From: Flavobacterium sp. 270
GTDB lineage: Bacteria; Bacteroidota; Bacteroidia; Flavobacteriales; Flavobacteriaceae
NCBI RefSeq assembly: GCF_004368785.1
Contig: NZ_SODM01000006.1
Location: 124,001 to 188,000, forward strand
Direction: 5' to 3'
Length of the DNA stretch: 64,000 nucleotides
This document shows, one piece after another, positions 3,497 to 48,978 of this stretch. The position numbers and the translations under genes were made by a program. The number at the start of each line of letters is the position of its first letter. Position 1 is the stretch's first letter. Below the pieces are notes generated by a model. It searched no databases. It saw only the letters and a list, made by a program, of their open reading frames with translations, and had not been told where the DNA came from.

Positions 3497-4753
3497 ATGG
3501 AAACTATTATAGATCAGGATATATCAAAAAGAAGAGCTTTACGCAAAATGAAGAGAAACGCTCTGGCGCTATTAGGTATTGCAGTGCTCTTGTTTATAAT
3601 TGCTATTTATTTTAAAATTCCGATGTTGCAGGCTTTTAGCGAAGCTGCAATGGTGGGTGGTATTGCCGATTGGTTTGCTGTAGTGGCGCTGTTTCGTCAT
3701 CCGTTGGGAATTCCGATTTGGCATACTGCAATTATTCCGACTAAGAAAAATGAAATTGGCGAAAATCTCGGGAATTTTGTTTCAGAAGAATTTCTGAATC
3801 GTGAAAAACTGGAAATAAAACTCGACGAATTTAATTTTGCCAGTAAAGCTTCAGATTGGCTGTCGCAGGAAGAAAATGCAAATAAAGTGGCAGATGTTGT
3901 TGCAATAAACATTATTCCCGGAATTTTAAAAGCAATAAAAGATGAAGATATCAAGAGATTTATTCAGGTTCAATTTAAAGAAAAACTAGAAGGAGTCAAT
4001 TTTGGTAATTGGGTTGCTGTTGCATTAGAGCCTTTGCAGAAGGGTGATTTAAAAAATCAGATGCTGACGAATCTTCTTGAAGTTATGAGTGGAGAACTGA
4101 CAAATAATAAAGATTTAATTAGACAAAAGGTAAAATCTTCAACTCCGTTTTTGAGTTTTGGATTGGCTGATAAAAGTATTACGGAAGGTGTTTTTAACGG
4201 TTTGCAGGATTTTTTAAATGAAGCCAAAAATCCAGAGAGTGCAGTACGTTTGAAAATCGATGAGTATATCTTTAATTTTTTAGAAAAAGTAAAAAACTCC
4301 GAAGAAATGAGAATTAAAATCAACGATATGATTTTAGGCTTTATCGGAAAAAAAGAAGTTCAGGATTACATCAATGGAATTTGGGATGAAATAAAATTGT
4401 CAATCACAAACGATTTAAATAAAGATGAAGAATCTTCGATCAGAAATAGTATTGCAGGATTGGTTCAGACTTTTGGAAACGGACTAAAAGAAGATCCAAT
4501 CATGTTTGAAAAAATCAACAGTTTTATTAAAAATGATTTGTTATCTGTACTCTTAAATAACAAAAAAGTAATTGGAGATTTGATTTCTTCAACTGTAAAA
4601 AGCTGGGACGGAAAAGAGGTGTCTGAAAAATTAGAATTAGAAATTGGTAAAGATCTTCAATATATAAGAATCAACGGAACTTTGGTCGGCGGTATTATTG
4701 GACTTATAATTTTTGGGGTTGAGCAATTGTATCATTTATTTCTAACCATATAA
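3497..4753 (+). CDS. DUF445 family membrane protein
   Basis: The 418-residue protein has one N-terminal transmembrane segment (about residues 21-42), then the DUF445 hallmark GGIADWFAVVALFRHP at about 54-69. A long charged, mostly helical region follows, with a second hydrophobic segment at the extreme C-terminus (GTLVGGIIGLIIFGV). This hairpin-like layout is usual for the family, whose function is unknown. It is divergent from map and convergent with gpmI. Its stop codon (4751-4753) lies inside the left arm of a palindromic intergenic repeat, so the last codons are shared with that repeat. Confidence 0.85.
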   Translation: METIIDQDISKRRALRKMKRNALALLGIAVLLFIIAIYFKIPMLQAFSEAAMVGGIADWFAVVALFRHPLGIPIWHTAIIPTKKNEIGENLGNFVSEEFLNREKLEIKLDEFNFASKASDWLSQEENANKVADVVAINIIPGILKAIKDEDIKRFIQVQFKEKLEGVNFGNWVAVALEPLQKGDLKNQMLTNLLEVMSGELTNNKDLIRQKVKSSTPFLSFGLADKSITEGVFNGLQDFLNEAKNPESAVRLKIDEYIFNFLEKVKNSEEMRIKINDMILGFIGKKEVQDYINGIWDEIKLSITNDLNKDEESSIRNSIAGLVQTFGNGLKEDPIMFEKINSFIKNDLLSVLLNNKKVIGDLISSTVKSWDGKEVSEKLELEIGKDLQYIRINGTLVGGIIGLIIFGVEQLYHLFLTI

Positions 4754-4949
4754 ATGATATAAGAAAATATAAAAGTATTGTCATAAAAATAAAAATCATG
4801 TAAGTAGCTCAAGTTTGTTTCAAATGAGCTTAGATCACTTATAAAAAAAAATCTCGCAAAGTCACAAAAACACCAAGTTAAAAATTCTTTGCGACTTCGC
4901 GTCTTTGCGAGATTTATGATTTAAATGAACTTATATCACTTATATGGTT
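4744..4949. repeat. Nested palindromic intergenic element (AACCATATAA family)
   Basis: The left arm at 4744-4763 (AACCATATAAATGATATAAG) and the right arm at 4930-4949 (CTTATATCACTTATATGGTT) are inverted copies with 19 of 20 matches. A degenerate third copy lies near 4821-4843. The same arms form the compact element at 12447-12529. Another inverted repeat (4849-4915) is nested inside. The element fills the whole gap between the convergent DUF445 and gpmI genes. Confidence 0.75.
4849..4915. terminator. Inverted repeat between convergent genes, possible bidirectional terminator
   Basis: The 13-base arms AAATCTCGCAAAG (4849-4861) and CTTTGCGAGATTT (4903-4915) are perfect complements around a 41-base loop that itself holds TTTGCGACTTCGCG. 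Runs of A precede the left arm, giving a T-run on the minus strand, so it may terminate gpmI transcripts. It also resembles the dispersed CGCAAAG-type repeats seen in flavobacterial genomes. Confidence 0.5.
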
Positions 4950-4955
4950 AAAAAA

Positions 4956-12433: not shown

Positions 12434-12446
12434 TTTTTATATCTTT

Positions 12447-12529
12447 TTTAAACCATATAAGTGATATAAGAAAATTTAAGTTGCTTGAATTAGACTTTAA
12501 ATGAACTTATATCACTTATATGGTTTAAA
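12447..12529. repeat. Compact palindromic intergenic element with perfect 24-base arms
   Basis: The left arm at 12447-12470 (TTTAAACCATATAAGTGATA plus TAAG) is the exact reverse complement of the right arm at 12506-12529, around a 35-base centre. This 83-base unit is the best-preserved member of the family also seen at 1135-1163 and 4744-4949. It lies between the tRNA pair and the 3' end of pepE and may also act as a terminator for pepE. Confidence 0.85.
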
Positions 12530-12536
12530 CAAAAAA

Positions 12537-13244
12537 TTAATTCAGATTGCTTAAGTCGGTTCCGGTTTCTAATTCTTCCGGACTTAGATTTTGTTTAAAG
12601 AGCCTTGCTTTTAAATCTCCTTTTAAGGTAACTTTATTTCCTTTTACTTCCAGCCAGCTGCCTTCTCTTAAACCCAAAACAGGAATTGCATTAAAAGCAT
12701 GAAATTCTTTAATTCTGGTTTCGCGCGTTTCGCCCATATGCAGTGACTGTGAATCTGGATCTAAATAATGCGGATTTAAATTGAATGAAATTAACCCTAA
12801 AGTCTGAAAACTTGGTGGATAAATAATAGGCATATCGTTTGTCGTCTGCATTGATAAACCGCAGATATTACTTCCGGCACTGGTTCCTAAGTAGGGAGTT
12901 CCATTTTTTACTGTTTCAGAAAGAAGCTGCATTACGTTGTTTTTGTACAATTGAGTAACGAGTAAAAAAGTATTACCGCCGCCTGTAAATATTCCTTCCG
13001 CATTTTTTATGGCATCTTGCGGGTTTTCAAATTCATGAATTCCTTTAACTTCAATATTTATAGCAGCAAAAGCCTGTGCTGCTTTTTTGGTATAGTCGTC
13101 ATGCGAAATTCCGCTTGGACGTGCATAAGGGATAAATAAAATGCTTTTACAATCTTTAAAATGCAGTTGTAAAGTCGGTAATAAATACTCTAAATAACTG
13201 CCTCCGTGCAGGGTAGAAGTGCTTGCGATAATGATACTTTTCAT
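12537..13244 (-). CDS. pepE: Dipeptidase E (alpha-aspartyl dipeptidase, peptidase S51)
   Basis: The enzyme hydrolyses dipeptides with N-terminal aspartate. The 235-residue protein starting MKSIIIASTSTLHGG has the nucleophile Ser122 in YLGTSAGSNICG, the GIFTGGGNTF turn, and NPHYLDPDS with the likely catalytic His159. The residues fit the Ser-His-Asp set of the S51 family, and the length agrees with PepE. A longer frame beginning at 13259 uses a TTG that is part of a TAATTTTG promoter element, so the ATG at 13244 is preferred. No signal peptide is seen, so it is cytoplasmic. Confidence 0.88.
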   Translation of the reverse strand: MKSIIIASTSTLHGGSYLEYLLPTLQLHFKDCKSILFIPYARPSGISHDDYTKKAAQAFAAINIEVKGIHEFENPQDAIKNAEGIFTGGGNTFLLVTQLYKNNVMQLLSETVKNGTPYLGTSAGSNICGLSMQTTNDMPIIYPPSFQTLGLISFNLNPHYLDPDSQSLHMGETRETRIKEFHAFNAIPVLGLREGSWLEVKGNKVTLKGDLKARLFKQNLSPEELETGTDLSNLN

Positions 13245-19559: not shown

Positions 19560-19565
19560 ATATTC

Positions 19566-19698
19566 AATTGCCTCCAGCTTTAGCTGGAGGTAAATAATAT
19601 ATTACATGAGTTGGCTTTAGCCAAATATGTGATATGTTTTGGCTAAAGCCCATTAACCTATCTTCAAAAAAAACCTCCAGCTAAAGCAGGAGGCAATT
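19566..19698. repeat. Nested palindromic repeat between convergent genes (REP-like)
   Basis: The outer arms at 19566-19590 and 19674-19698 match as inverted repeats at 24 of 25 positions. Each arm is itself palindromic (CCTCCAGCTTTAGCTGGAGG). A second inner pair (TTGGCTTTAGCCAAA and TTTTGGCTAAAGCCCA) lies between them. The 133-base unit would fold into a clover of hairpins and sits between two convergent genes, where it may stop transcription from both sides. Confidence 0.8.
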
Positions 19699-19781
19699 CA
19701 ATTTGACTATTTATTTTATAGAAACAGCTTTTCTAAGTAAAAACTTAGAACCTCAGCATCTCAATATCTTAGCAACTTAGA

Positions 19782-37403: not shown

Positions 37404-37515
37404 AAATTCCAATAAAAAAATCCCAAATTCCAATTTTACGGTTGGAATTTGGGATTTTTTATATTTTAAATTCAAGTTCCTAAGTTTGGAATTTGGATTT
37501 TTTTTATTGGAATTT
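37404..37515. repeat. Nested inverted repeat of the AAATTCCAA family, bidirectional terminator
   Basis: The outer arms at 37404-37433 and 37486-37515 are near-perfect reverse complements (one single-base shift). The inner stem of 18 base pairs at 37416-37433 and 37442-37459 (AAATTCCAA with TTGGAATTT) ends in T-runs. It lies between convergent gldC and engB and can stop both. Related copies are at 44541-44584 and 56484-56536. Confidence 0.8.
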
Positions 37516-44608: not shown

Positions 44609-45841
44609 ATGCTGTACTATTTATTTGAATATTTAAACAAAACATTACACCTACCGGGAACTGGTGTATTTCAGTACATCACTTTTAGATCGGCAATGGC
44701 ATTTATGCTTTCGCTTCTTTTGTCAACAATTTACGGAAAAAGGATTATTAACTTTTTGCGCAGACAACAAGTAGGAGAAACCGTTCGTGAGTTAGGTTTG
44801 GCAGGACAAAATGAAAAAGCAGGAACACCAACAATGGGAGGACTGATTATCATTTTTGCAACGCTTTTGCCTGTTTTGTTATTTGCTCGTCTGCATAATA
44901 TTTACATCGTATTGCTCATTGTTACTACACTTTGGATGGGAACAATTGGTTTTATAGACGATTATATTAAAATATTCAAAAAAGACAAACAAGGGCTTAA
45001 AGGAATTTTTAAAGTTATAGGTCAGGTTGGTTTAGGAATTATAGTAGGAACCGTTCTTTATTTTAATCCGGCAGTAACCGTTAGAACCGATACAGGAAGA
45101 ACTGACTTGTACAAATCTGGAGTTAATACAACTGTTGTTTTACCAGTTCCGGTAGAAGAAAAATCAACAGCAACAACAATCCCTTTCATTAAAAATAATG
45201 AATTTGATTATGCGGAGATTTTAGCCTGGACAGGAGACGGATACGAAAAATGGGCATGGTTAGTTTTTATCCCCGTTGTAATTTTTATCATTACAGCAGT
45301 TTCTAACGGAGCAAATCTAACAGACGGAATCGACGGACTCGCCGCGGGAACATCGGCAATTTCAGTCCTCGCGCTCGGGATATTTACATTCCTTTCGGGT
45401 AATATTGTTTTTTCTAATTATCTGAATATTATGTATATCCCCAATTCGGGAGAAATGACCGTCTTTATATCCGCTTTTGTGGGTGCGCTGATTGGGTTTC
45501 TTTGGTACAATTCCTTTCCCGCATCTGTTTTTATGGGAGACACAGGAAGTTTGACAATTGGAGGAATTATAGCAGTTCTGGCAATTGCCGTTCGTAAAGA
45601 AATATTGATCGTTTTATTCTGCGGTATTTTCCTTGCCGAAAGTGCATCAGTAGTATTACAAGTGTTTTATTTTAAATATACAAAGAAACGTTTTGGAGAA
45701 GGACGAAGAATTTTCCTGATGGCGCCATTACATCATCATTATCAGAAAAAGGGATATCATGAAAGTAAAATCGTAACCCGATTCTGGATTGTAGCGATCA
45801 TGTTAGCCATATTATCAATCGTTACTTTAAAACTAAGATAG
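44609..45841 (+). CDS. mraY: Phospho-MurNAc-pentapeptide transferase
   Basis: The enzyme transfers phospho-MurNAc-pentapeptide to undecaprenyl phosphate to give lipid I. The 410-residue polytopic protein has the conserved [38 protein letters not shown] (DDYIK), [38 protein letters not shown] and [19 protein letters not shown]. It is about 50 residues longer than the E. coli enzyme because of an insert at about 155-208 ([37 protein letters not shown]) in a periplasmic loop. Its stop abuts the murD start. Confidence 0.95.
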
Positions 45842-47173
45842 ATGAGACTGGTAGTTTTAGGAGGAGGAGAAAGTGGTGTTGGTACAGCTATTCTCGGAAA
45901 GAAACAAGGGTATGATGTTTTTGTTTCGGATTTTGGAAAGATCAAAGAAAGTTATAAAGAAGTTCTTATCATTAATAAAATTGCCTGGGAAGAAGAACAG
46001 CACACAGAAGAACTGATTTTGAATGCCGATGTGGTGATGAAAAGTCCGGGAATTCCAGAGAAATCTCCCATAGTAAAAAAGCTGGTTGCAGCAGGAGTTA
46101 AAGTGATTTCTGAAATTGAATTTGCTAAACCTTTTACTGAAGCATTAACCATCGGAATTACCGGAAGTAACGGTAAAACGACTACAACAATGCTTACGTA
46201 CCATCTGCTAAAATCTGCAGGTTTGAATGTTGGTTTGGGAGGAAACATCGGAAAAAGTTTTGCCTGGCAGGTTGCAGAAAATAAGTTTGATGCCTACGTT
46301 CTGGAATTAAGTAGTTTTCAGCTCGACGGAATTATAGAGTACAGGCCGGATATTGCGATAATTACCAATATTAGTCCAGATCATTTAGATCGATACGAAT
46401 ATAAATATCAAAATTATATCAATTCGAAGTTTCGAATAACAATGAACCAGACTGAAAATGATTATCTGATTTACGATGCAGATGATGAAGCAAGTACAGA
46501 ATGGTTAAAGAACAATACAACAAAAGCAAAATTAATTCCTTTTTCATTATCGAAAAGTTTTGACGAAGGAGCTTCTATAAATAACAACAAAATGGAAATA
46601 AAGATCAACCAAGAAGAGTTTACAATGGAGACACAACACATTGCGTTAGAAGGAAAACATAACATGAAGAACGCAATGGCAGCAAGCTCTGTAGCGAAGT
46701 TGATGCAAATAAGAAATGCAACAATCCGCGAAAGTTTATCTAATTTTCAAGGTGTTGAACACCGTTTAGAAAAAGTATTAAAAATACAAAACGTACAATA
46801 CATCAACGATTCTAAAGCAACAAACGTAAACGCTACTTTCTTTGCTTTAGACAGCATGAATGTGCCAACAGTTTGGATTGTTGGAGGTGTTGATAAAGGA
46901 AATGATTATAACGAATTAATGTCATTGGTTCGTGAAAAAGTAAAAGCCATTATTTGTCTTGGAGTTGACAACAGAAAAATAATTGACGCTTTCGGAAACG
47001 TAGTAGATATTATGGTTGAAGTAAATAACATGAACGACGCTGTAAAAACAGCTCAAAAATTAACAGAAAAAGGTGATGCTGTTTTATTATCTCCAGCCTG
47101 CGCAAGTTTCGATTTATTCGAAAATTACGAAGACAGAGGGAAACAATTTAAACAAGCAGTACATAATTTATAA
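45842..47173 (+). CDS. murD: UDP-MurNAc-L-alanine:D-glutamate ligase
   Basis: The 443-residue ligase adds D-glutamate to UDP-MurNAc-L-Ala. Motifs are LVVLGGGESGVGTAILGKKQ, VMKSPGIPEKSPIV, GITGSNGKTTTTMLTYHLLK, NISPDHLDRYEYKYQNYINS, QGVEHRLEKVLKIQNVQYIN with DSKATNVNA, and the end LLSPACASFDLFENYEDRGK. Length is normal. The stop codon TAA at 47171-47173 shares its last base with the left arm of the four-helix-bundle cassette. Confidence 0.95.
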   Translation: MRLVVLGGGESGVGTAILGKKQGYDVFVSDFGKIKESYKEVLIINKIAWEEEQHTEELILNADVVMKSPGIPEKSPIVKKLVAAGVKVISEIEFAKPFTEALTIGITGSNGKTTTTMLTYHLLKSAGLNVGLGGNIGKSFAWQVAENKFDAYVLELSSFQLDGIIEYRPDIAIITNISPDHLDRYEYKYQNYINSKFRITMNQTENDYLIYDADDEASTEWLKNNTTKAKLIPFSLSKSFDEGASINNNKMEIKINQEEFTMETQHIALEGKHNMKNAMAASSVAKLMQIRNATIRESLSNFQGVEHRLEKVLKIQNVQYINDSKATNVNATFFALDSMNVPTVWIVGGVDKGNDYNELMSLVREKVKAIICLGVDNRKIIDAFGNVVDIMVEVNNMNDAVKTAQKLTEKGDAVLLSPACASFDLFENYEDRGKQFKQAVHNL

Positions 47174-47664
47174 TTTTAGATTTCAGAGTTTAGATTTTAG
47201 ATTTTTTCTAGACTTTGAGTTTAATTATTTTTTAAAGTTCTTTTTGAATGATGACGGAGGAGATGAAGTTGAGAACAAAGAAGTTCTCATTGATGGTTAT
47301 AGATTTGGCTGAAAAACTGCCAAATTTAAGTGCTTGTAGAGTAATTGCGAATCAGATTATTAGAAGTGGGACATCTGTTGGGGCAAATTATCGAGCAGTT
47401 TGCAGAGCTAGAAGTGATAAAGAATTTATTTCGAAAATGAATATAGTTTTAGAAGAGTCTGATGAAACTTTATTTTGGATAGAAATTATAATAGAAAAAA
47501 ACTGGATCGAAAGACCAATATTAGAAATAATCTGGAAAGAAGCAAATGAGCTAACAGCCATTTTTGTAAGCAGTTTAAAAACAGTAAACAAAAGAATTAA
47601 TAATTAAAAAATCAAAACCGAAAGTTTTAAAACAATCTAAAATCTAAAATCAGAAATCTAAAAT
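47173..47664 (+). mobile_element. Single-gene cassette bounded by terminal inverted repeats (four-helix-bundle cassette) inside the dcw operon
   Basis: A 34-base sequence at 47173-47206 (starting ATTTTAGATTTCAGAGTTTA) recurs as an inverted copy at 47631-47664 (minus strand starting ATTTTAGATTTCTGATTTTA), with 31 of 34 matches, both pointing inward. Weaker similarity continues inward for perhaps 30 bases. The left arm begins in the murD stop codon and the right arm ends one base before the ftsW ATG at 47665, so the 492-base unit fills the whole space between two essential genes. Its only gene runs in the operon direction. No transposase is seen. In the dcw mRNA the arms can pair and loop out the inner gene. 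Confidence 0.65.
47248..47607 (+). CDS. Four-helix-bundle protein (S23/IVP family)
   Basis: The 119-residue protein matches the four-helix-bundle family first known from intervening sequences of 23S rRNA genes: KFSLMVIDLAEKLPN, the hallmark ANQIIRSGTSVGANYRAVCR, ARSDKEFISKMNIVLEESDE and TLFWIEIIIEKNWI. The protein is small, soluble and forms pentameric rings in solved relatives; the function of stand-alone copies is unknown. Here it interrupts the dcw cluster between murD and ftsW within inverted repeats, which is not a usual place. The start may be either of two ATG codons at 47248 or 47251, or the ATG at 47263 (MKLRTKKFSL). Confidence 0.88.
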   Translation: MMTEEMKLRTKKFSLMVIDLAEKLPNLSACRVIANQIIRSGTSVGANYRAVCRARSDKEFISKMNIVLEESDETLFWIEIIIEKNWIERPILEIIWKEANELTAIFVSSLKTVNKRINN

Positions 47665-48978
47665 ATGAAGGAACTAGTAAACAAATTAAAAGGAGATAGA
47701 GTAATATGGTCATTCGTGGCTTTATTAGCGCTGTTTTCGTTTATGCCTGTTTTTAGTGCGAGTAGTAACTTGGCATATATAGGCCACGGAACCGGAAACA
47801 CTTTGGGTTATTTGGTAAAACATTTGGCGCATATCTGTATTGGTTTTTTGATCATATATTGGGTTCACAGAGTTCCGTATCATTATTTTAGAGCAATATC
47901 AAAAGTTGCACTGCCAATTGTATGGCTTTTATTGGCATACACGCTTCTAAAAGGAACCGTAATTGCAGGAGCGAATGCAAGTCGTTGGATTCAGGTTCCG
48001 TTTATCGGAATCACGTTTCAAACTTCCACTCTGGCTTCTATTGTACTGTTTATTTATGTAGCGCGTTATTTATCCAAAACAAAAGAAGAAAACGAACCGT
48101 TTCAAACGTCATTAATACAACTTTGGATTCCCGTTTTTATAACATTGGCAATGATATTACCAGCCAACTTTTCGACCACCGCGTTGATTTTTTCAATGGT
48201 AATCATGCTGACATTTATCGGGAAATATCCAATAAAATATATTGCTTTTATCATTGGTTCAGGAGTTGCCATGTTACTGTTTTTCTTATTAGTAGCAAAA
48301 GCATTTCCCGATTCAAGATTTTTCAGCAGGGTAAGAACGTGGGAAAGTCGTATCGAAAACTTTACCACAGACAAACCAGACGAAGATGATTATCAGATTG
48401 AAAAAGCAAAAATTGCCATAGCATCGGGACAATTTGGAGGTCTGGGGCCAGGGAAAAGTGTTCAGAAGAACTTTTTACCGCAGTCATCATCCGATTTTAT
48501 TTACGCTATTATCGTAGAAGAATATGGTTTAGTTGGAGGAGTTTCTATAGTGATTTTGTATTTATTGCTTTTATTTCGATTTGTAATTGCTTCACACAAA
48601 GCCAATACATTATTTGGAAAATTAGTTGTCGTCGGGCTCGGTTTTCCGATGATATTTCAAGCCATGATTAATATGGCCGTAGCAGTAGAATTAATGCCGG
48701 TAACAGGGCAGACATTACCGCTGATAAGTTCGGGAGGTAGTTCGATCTGGATGACTTGTTTTTCTCTTGGAATCATTATTAGTGTAACCAAAAAAGAAGA
48801 AGAAATCGCCGAAGAACAAGAAGAAAAAGAAAAACGAAAAGAAGCACTTCAGCGATTAATCGATAAAGAATTAGACGAAGAAAATTTAGTTCCGAATGAT
48901 ATTGCATATCAAGAAGAAGAAATGTATTCGATACAAGATAATTCCAGAAATCCGATGAATGCAGTTTTAAACAAATAG
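47665..48978 (+). CDS. ftsW: Septal peptidoglycan polymerase FtsW
   Basis: The 437-residue SEDS-family protein polymerises lipid II at the septum together with the division transpeptidase. It has about ten membrane helices, TVIAGANASRWIQVPFIGITFQ in the conserved extracellular region (GANASRW), a long loop with FPDSRFFSRVRTWESRIENF, and VAVELMPVTGQTLPLISSGG with SIW near the end. A charged tail of about 60 residues follows. The start codon comes one base after the right arm of the four-helix-bundle cassette, so the region normally used for ribosome binding is made of repeat sequence. Confidence 0.93.
   Translation: MKELVNKLKGDRVIWSFVALLALFSFMPVFSASSNLAYIGHGTGNTLGYLVKHLAHICIGFLIIYWVHRVPYHYFRAISKVALPIVWLLLAYTLLKGTVIAGANASRWIQVPFIGITFQTSTLASIVLFIYVARYLSKTKEENEPFQTSLIQLWIPVFITLAMILPANFSTTALIFSMVIMLTFIGKYPIKYIAFIIGSGVAMLLFFLLVAKAFPDSRFFSRVRTWESRIENFTTDKPDEDDYQIEKAKIAIASGQFGGLGPGKSVQKNFLPQSSSDFIYAIIVEEYGLVGGVSIVILYLLLLFRFVIASHKANTLFGKLVVVGLGFPMIFQAMINMAVAVELMPVTGQTLPLISSGGSSIWMTCFSLGIIISVTKKEEEIAEEQEEKEKRKEALQRLIDKELDEENLVPNDIAYQEEEMYSIQDNSRNPMNAVLNK

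Follow-up and report, generated by a model that had tools for sequence, protein, structure and literature searches.

The 64,000 nucleotide stretch of Flavobacterium sp. 270 analysed here (contig NZ_SODM01000006.1, positions 124,001 to 188,000; hereafter the window) was found to carry a small gene-bearing cassette within a run of large open reading frames (ORFs) that, from their order and length, we take to be genes of the division and cell-wall (dcw) cluster. The cassette (47173-47664, forward strand) is 492 bp long, is framed by inverted arms and fills the joint between murD and ftsW. Its first base is the last one of the TAA stop codon of murD (murD, 45842-47173), and its last base immediately precedes the ftsW ATG at 47665. 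Inside it, on the forward strand, lies a gene (47248-47607) for a 119 aa four-helix-bundle (FHB) protein of the S23/IVP type (TIGR02436, PF05635). Two smaller ORFs (67 and 79 aa) overlap the FHB ORF or its left side, ORFs being called here and in all other loci by a simple longest-ORF rule.

The outer 34 bases of the arms (47173-47206 on the left, 47631-47664 on the right) pair at 31 of 34 positions when the left arm is set against the reverse complement of the right and counted by eye. With a repeat finder, the arms reach 59 nt at 80% (47173-47231 and 47606-47664), the inner part being the weaker match. The length of the unit, its arms, its exact boundaries and the enclosed gene are as a preliminary description of this DNA had given them. 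A feature overlooked there is that the arms are composed of 7-nt units, TTTTAGA, TTTCAGA and GTTTAGA in tandem on the left and units of the AATCTAA type on the right, and repeat analysis gave a period of 7. An 18-mer from the arms, with up to 3 mismatches allowed, matched the window 11 times, 6 of these inside the two arms, against 0.94 matches expected. The predicted RNA fold of the unit has an energy of -114 kcal/mol (z = -5.68), with the arms forming the closing stem. No rRNA gene was found at the cassette, and Rfam at gathering scores disclosed only three tRNAs across the window.

The FHB ORF scored 79.9 bits against TIGR02436 ('four helix bundle protein', cut-off 24) and 50.8 bits against PF05635 (23S_rRNA_IVP, cut-off 33.8), confirming the family assignment. 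The protein resembles PDB entry 2rld (E = 9e-19). Its AlphaFold2 model consists of four helices (mean pLDDT 95.6), and Foldseek with this model returned 2rld first and 2gsc second (S23 family), as well as Avd (4dwl and the 8ub entries; TMq 0.68-0.76, probability 0.97-1.00, E-values 0.18-0.8, identity 12-14%). A Y1 (HUH) transposase was not found in the cassette, PF05635 being the only Pfam match, and NCBIfam likewise gave no transposase, only TIGR02436 and a hypothetical-protein model below its cut-off. Among intact FHB copies at the two dcw joints described below (8 and 4 copies), the median dN/dS was ~0.11, compared with 0.035 for murD, and the FHB protein is therefore under selection, for the host or for the cassette. 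Broken copies account for 2 of 10 at murD-ftsW and 1 of 5 at the other joint, mraY-murD.

Inverted periodic arms around FHB genes

Arms were scored by local alignment of the inverted flanks of each gene and were accepted at a score of at least 14, a threshold fixed after the distribution had been inspected; the 60 FHB-centred loci were chosen by hand, mainly from better assemblies. In the loci fetched from the genus, 73 of 95 FHB genes are framed by such arms, compared with 48 of 2,024 control ORFs. Size-matched ORFs gave 5 of 373, and mismatched pairings of upstream and downstream FHB flanks reached the threshold in 262 of 2,000 cases. When FHB genes were grouped for independence by single linkage, the median score was at least 14 in 19 of 26 groups at 70% protein identity and in 8 of 9 at 60%.

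Among distinct FHB genes, 122 of 171 have arms, and the best period is 7 in 64 of these, 14 in 27, 8 in 27 and 9 in 4. After shuffling of the arms, the same periods were obtained in 11, 18, 6 and 4 cases, respectively. On the FHB protein tree, which like the five-protein host tree was built with FastTree, unit length changes 6 times, compared with a minimum of 24 and a mean of 28.7 changes in 100 shuffles. Nearest neighbours agree in unit length in all 24 cases at 60-80% identity and all 74 above this range, and in 4 of 6 at 40-60%. This tie of unit length to protein clade is the strongest and most testable result of the analysis. The sequence of the unit varies by lineage and includes TTTTAGA, AATTAAA, AATTGTG, AATTAGAT, GATTTTT, GTACGAA and others.

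The association was also found in the reverse direction. Strong inverted repeats around an FHB gene numbered 54 across 121 loci (2.4 Mb), and every one of them has a period of 7 or 8, as against 37 of 96 short hairpins in the same loci. The neighbours on both sides are co-directional for 58 of 63 FHB genes, compared with 90 of 164 size-matched ORFs, and for 16 of 19 FHB groups formed at 70% identity.

Matches to TIGR02436 are present in 146 of 150 genomes of the genus (six in this genome), in 223 of 296 genomes drawn from the phylum, in 72 of 369 from the class of a Thiotrichaceae genome and in 87 of 148 from the phylum of a Desulfobulbaceae genome. Of 42 named loci, roughly half of them from Flavobacterium, 35 have arms (45 ORFs were found in 48 loci, and 3 were too near an edge). 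Among hosts from other phyla, heptads of this kind stand directly 5' of the next start codon in Desulfobulbaceae (L284, AATTGAT), Chlorobiaceae (L269, AGTTGAT) and Thiotrichaceae (L265, TTAATGG). Sixteen of the 25 plasmid records with an FHB match were fetched, and arms frame the gene at 13 of 15 plasmid loci, all 13 with a period of 7 or 14. Among the plasmid units, AATTCGT was found in Dolichospermum and in one Nostoc, and other Nostoc have AATTCGC and GAAGTCG; Planktothrix has AATCCCC/AATCGTA, Euhalothece CCAGTGA and Bernardetia GTGATTA; arms were found in Treponema too. Scores of 8.0 were obtained for L301, a broken copy, and for L305, a phage contig (one of two phage records with a match); both stand outside the plasmid count of 15. 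The contexts of FHB genes include hsdS/hsdR, drmD/MmeI, cas2/cas1 and csx2/cas1, the csx2/cas1 locus and L303 being below the arm threshold. In the cyanobacterial plasmids L303 and L329, the FHB gene lies between cas2 and cas1, on the opposite strand.

Occupied and empty joints in dcw clusters

The dcw clusters compared were 61 in number, namely the window and 60 Flavobacterium loci out of 148 genomes with an ftsW match. The best-scoring loci were taken, except G146, G043 and G111 to G061 (the lower end of the list), and 20 were added by hand, some of them owing to a nearby FHB match; the occupancy fractions are therefore not population estimates. An FHB gene is present at the murD-ftsW joint in 10 of the 61 clusters, where the gap is 450-497 bp (491 bp in the window), whereas the gap is 20-164 bp in the 51 clusters without it. 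The insertion claimed in the preliminary description is thus borne out. Many of the murD-ftsW joints that have no FHB gene contain short hairpins of other heptads (TTTCAAG/TTTCAGG and others), so that a change at this joint is a swap of alleles.

A second FHB lineage, with arms of AATTAAA heptads, occupies the mraY-murD joint in five relatives (L093, L095, L108, L113 and L137). This joint is empty in the window (45841-45842, 0 bp). Unoccupied mraY-murD joints measure -1 to 6 bp apart from a single one of 81 bp; contig L152, which stops before mraY, was counted as unoccupied. Both joints are occupied in two genomes, G120 and G006. On the host tree, occupancy of murD-ftsW requires 9 changes for 10 occupied tips (minimum 8 and mean 9.44 in 100 shuffles) and that of mraY-murD 5 changes for 5 occupied tips (minimum 4, mean 4.89). 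Cassette occupancy is as scattered over the host tree as shuffled labels.

The closest pair of genomes consists of G006, with both cassettes, and G062, with neither, and the mismatches between them crowd beside the joints. At murD-ftsW, 11 mismatches fall in the last 64 bp of murD, the next being at 979 bp, and ftsW has 5 within its first 27 bp, the next being at 216 bp. At mraY-murD, 3 mismatches fall in the last 9 bp of mraY, with the next at 445 bp, and murD has 5 within its first 18 bp, followed by single ones at 84, 156 and 354 bp. Clean stretches of 65-914 bp lie beyond these mismatches, and all four peptides at the joint ends are identical despite them. A donor of the flank tracts was sought among the sampled genomes, and none matched (closest 4 of 65). 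From the aligned sequences, the pattern was read as replacement of the joint allele together with short donor flanks, the flank tracts being 9-64 bp in this one sister pair; the data are compatible with either gain or loss.

Other framed genes, hairpins and arrays

An arrangement parallel to the FHB cassette is present in the window at 1963-2472, where 36-nt inverted periodic arms enclose an ORF of a different family, PDDEXK_3 (PD-(D/E)XK), on the reverse strand (2031-2402). The scan that gave the FHB-enclosing repeats also gave seven inverted repeats with long spacers (>250 nt) and no FHB gene. Four of these enclose one type of small ORF, and the three that were submitted proved to be PF13366 PDDEXK_3; one encloses a Y1_Tnp ORF, and two enclose no noteworthy small gene. 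Among PDDEXK_3-type ORFs found in the loci, 4 of 5 have arms. Those at L161 (6550-7101), L182 (6487-7092) and L190 (12840-13450) have arms with an 8-nt unit (ACACATAGAAACATAG). The inverted repeat at L201 (3359-4048) surrounds the Y1_Tnp gene, which we take to be similar to those of the REP-associated tyrosine transposases (RAYTs; REP, repetitive extragenic palindromic). The PDDEXK_3 and Y1_Tnp cassettes suggest that the architecture is wider than the FHB family and support the comparison with RAYT/REP made below.

Several hairpins were observed elsewhere in the window. Those at 12436-12540 and 4739-4954 are related and have AACCATATAAGTGATATAAG arms, the second enclosing a further hairpin of the CTCGCAAAG type; hairpins with these arms look like members of a dispersed family. 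At 19562-19702, an inverted CCTCCAGCTTTAGCTGGAGG repeat surrounds a second hairpin of the GGCTTTAGCC type. The hairpin at 37404-37515 is built of AAATTCC heptads, and the same heptad frames an FHB gene at G000:C2:411645 (L003).

In this genome, the heptad of the murD-ftsW cassette also forms uninterrupted tandem arrays of over ten units, at G000:C1:102822-102915 and G000:C3:300807-300900; no FHB ORF was found within the 3-kb surroundings of the first. The number of TTTTAGA arrays in a genome was compared with the presence of the cassette (median 76.5 in 8 genomes with it and 27 in 19 without, p 0.011). This comparison was set aside, because the genomes are related and cassette-less species reach 159.

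Likeness to known systems and alternative explanations

The cassette has much in common with the intervening sequences (IVSs) of the 23S rRNA genes of Coxiella and Leptospira. In the passages of PMC4990558 that describe them, IVSs share PF05635 with the cassette, measure 428-444 nt (492 bp here), have terminal inverted repeats round one ORF with a 28-bp stem (34-nt arms here), are patchily distributed with a decaying ORF, as is the cassette, and have a mobile origin among the hypotheses proposed; the S23p protein of Xanthomonas is reported there to be a homopentamer. The predicted fold of the cassette is, as in an IVS, an RNA stem closed by terminal inverted repeats. The cassette differs in lying between protein genes and not in rRNA, and in having arms made of tandem 7-nt units. 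Identity with an rRNA IVS was rejected, as Rfam gave no rRNA at the locus.

RAYTs are Y1 HUH transposases that may help REP sequences persist or spread. As in RAYT/REP, inverted copies of a repeat lie on either side of the gene in the cassette, and the repeat is also dispersed without the gene. The FHB protein, unlike a RAYT, has no known catalytic activity and is not a transposase, and REPs are not known to be 7-nt tandem arrays. The cassette works like both systems but lacks the rRNA location that defines the one and the transposase of the other.

Heptamers that have been left unexplained include GGGAATC in Xanthomonas and GGGGA(C/T)T in Nostoc, for which the relevant passages of PMC4692102 give 70 inverted pairs in Xcc, 75 in Xac and few in Nostoc, and TAACTGA in Beggiatoaceae (in part of PMC4679880). 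As far as these passages go, the published repeats resemble those studied here in being 7-nt tandem units that are mainly intergenic and form inverted pairs, but are described without an associated gene family, whereas the present heptads are tied to FHB genes. This link was not found in the open-access literature searched, most subscription journals being outside it. A further comparison is with Avd of diversity-generating retroelements, to which PF05635 is likened in a passage of PMC10053308. The fold is common to both (4dwl and the 8ub entries) at the 12-14% sequence identity given above, and titles of PDB entries place Avd within a reverse-transcriptase ribonucleoprotein.

On balance, we lean slightly towards the view that the cassette is a mobile unit like the 23S rRNA IVSs and RAYT/REP, exchanged by short-tract allelic replacement. 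An S23/IVP-type FHB gene and two inverted arrays of short tandem units (usually 7 nt, 8 or 9 in some clades) would together form a single-gene mobile cassette, one member of a broad class, which would be placed in co-directional gene joints without breaking genes. It would be gained and lost by allelic replacement with short donor flanks, either through homing-like co-conversion or in short recombination tracts. The FHB protein, with its S23 (pentameric)/Avd fold, may bind the repeat arms of its own cassette, either in DNA or as an RNA stem, and by analogy with RAYT and REP this binding could help the cassette to persist or spread. Dispersed arm repeats and short heptad hairpins would be gene-less derivatives, and RNase III may cleave the long stem in the mRNA, as it does in the 23S rRNA IVSs.

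The preliminary description had suggested a selfish cassette using the clean joint between two essential genes as its target, a suggestion that is largely, though not wholly, supported. An optional cassette framed by inverted repeats at gene joints was indeed found, but not a fast-moving or target-specific transposon: since relocation is rare and the cassette diverges as the host genes do, it is not a fast-jumping one. The cassette also does sit in a clean operon joint, but this joint is probably a tolerated insertion place and not a recognised target.

A number of observations weigh against a mobile unit. No movement of the cassette was observed. Cassette identity equals host identity (87.5% each on average, 28 pairs, Spearman 0.66), which suggests long residence at the site and also fits one old insertion followed by many losses. 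FHB pairs with at least 80% protein identity have both flanks in common in 355 of 362 cases, and pairs at 60-70% identity have neither in common in 567 of 618. Inspection of empty and occupied sites at the two joints disclosed the empty sites foreseen in the preliminary description but no visible target-site duplication. Within the pair G006/G062, divergence resumes in ftsW at 216 bp (43 mismatches over 1.3 kb) and in mraY at 445 bp (11 over 1.3 kb), and a second close pair, G047/G039, gives a less clear flank pattern. Compensatory evolution of the arms within orthologues was rejected, because arms pair with their own partner and with that of another species equally well (26.2 versus 25.9 and 26.0 versus 25.9), and arm covariation in orthologues is thus not shown. 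The arms are not universal, being present at 15 of 36 best-scoring loci of the genus and phylum and at 9 of 17 in a set of four genomes; 4 of these 9 were already among the 42 named loci, which leaves 5 of 13 as new. Many of the FHB genes compared are orthologues, so that the associated p-values overstate independence. Lastly, copies of the arm unit are dispersed across the genome, with 60 exact matches to a 17-mer of it and 346 matches with up to 2 mismatches. Of the 13 array sites in this genome for which the 3-kb surroundings were extracted, none contained an FHB ORF. The arms therefore do recur without the gene, a possibility that the preliminary description had held against its own proposal, yet the reverse association is strong.

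Much of this would suit an ordinary, vertically inherited gene with one ancestral entry and many losses, the heptad hairpins being generic intergenic structures. Such a gene would be expected to diverge in step with its host and rarely to relocate, as observed, and the purifying selection (dN/dS ~0.11), the hairpins at murD-ftsW joints without the gene and the dispersal of the unit agree with it. We nevertheless consider it unlikely, given that occupancy is scattered like random labels, that no scar is left at empty mraY-murD joints (36 of 40 loci are unoccupied, with gaps of -1 to 3 bp), that two independent FHB lineages stand in one operon and that tracts of 9-64 bp flank the joints in G006/G062. 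Generic hairpins would also leave unexplained why unit length follows the FHB tree and why the arrangement recurs in other phyla.

The correspondence of unit length and protein clade is shared by an explanation at the RNA level, in which a host FHB protein binds heptad stems in its own and other mRNAs and tunes their processing or translation, its gene lying inside its own binding site. The strong closing stem (z = -5.68), the position between co-directional genes and a fold related to Avd, itself part of a ribonucleoprotein, point the same way. Presence or absence among close relatives inside an essential operon, the broken copies (2 of 10 at murD-ftsW, 1 of 5 at mraY-murD) and contexts that range from dcw to cas and restriction genes argue against such a module, which appears improbable. 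Inverted ends, dispersed related repeats and presence/absence alleles are also what a classical non-autonomous transposon would produce, one whose arms serve as the ends for a transposase encoded at another place and whose cargo is the FHB gene. This is very doubtful, as the sequence of the ends and even their unit length change with the clade of the cargo protein, the gene-less murD-ftsW alleles are hairpins of other units and not copies with the same ends, and target duplication was not seen; a classical transposon with target duplication was rejected on the two joints.

A wider explanation could also be entertained, though we hold it tentatively and at somewhat less than even confidence. 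Inverted arrays of 7-, 8- or 9-nt units may be the signature of pan-bacterial single-gene cassettes, in which an Avd/S23-fold protein reads the unit and its clade sets the length. The excess of intergenic heptamers, comprising cyanobacterial short repeats of a comparable kind (which we take to be those named STRRs), the heptads of Flavobacterium and perhaps those of Xanthomonas, would then be arms and gene-less remains, the 23S rRNA IVSs would be a branch settled in rRNA, and PD-(D/E)XK and RAYT genes would share the architecture.

For Flavobacterium, the finding means that an essential cell-wall operon has been invaded at more than a single joint. For a very widespread bacterial family of unknown function it supplies a context, linking FHB proteins to short tandem repeats that have so far been without explanation, and each protein clade predicts the length and sequence of the unit that its protein would bind.

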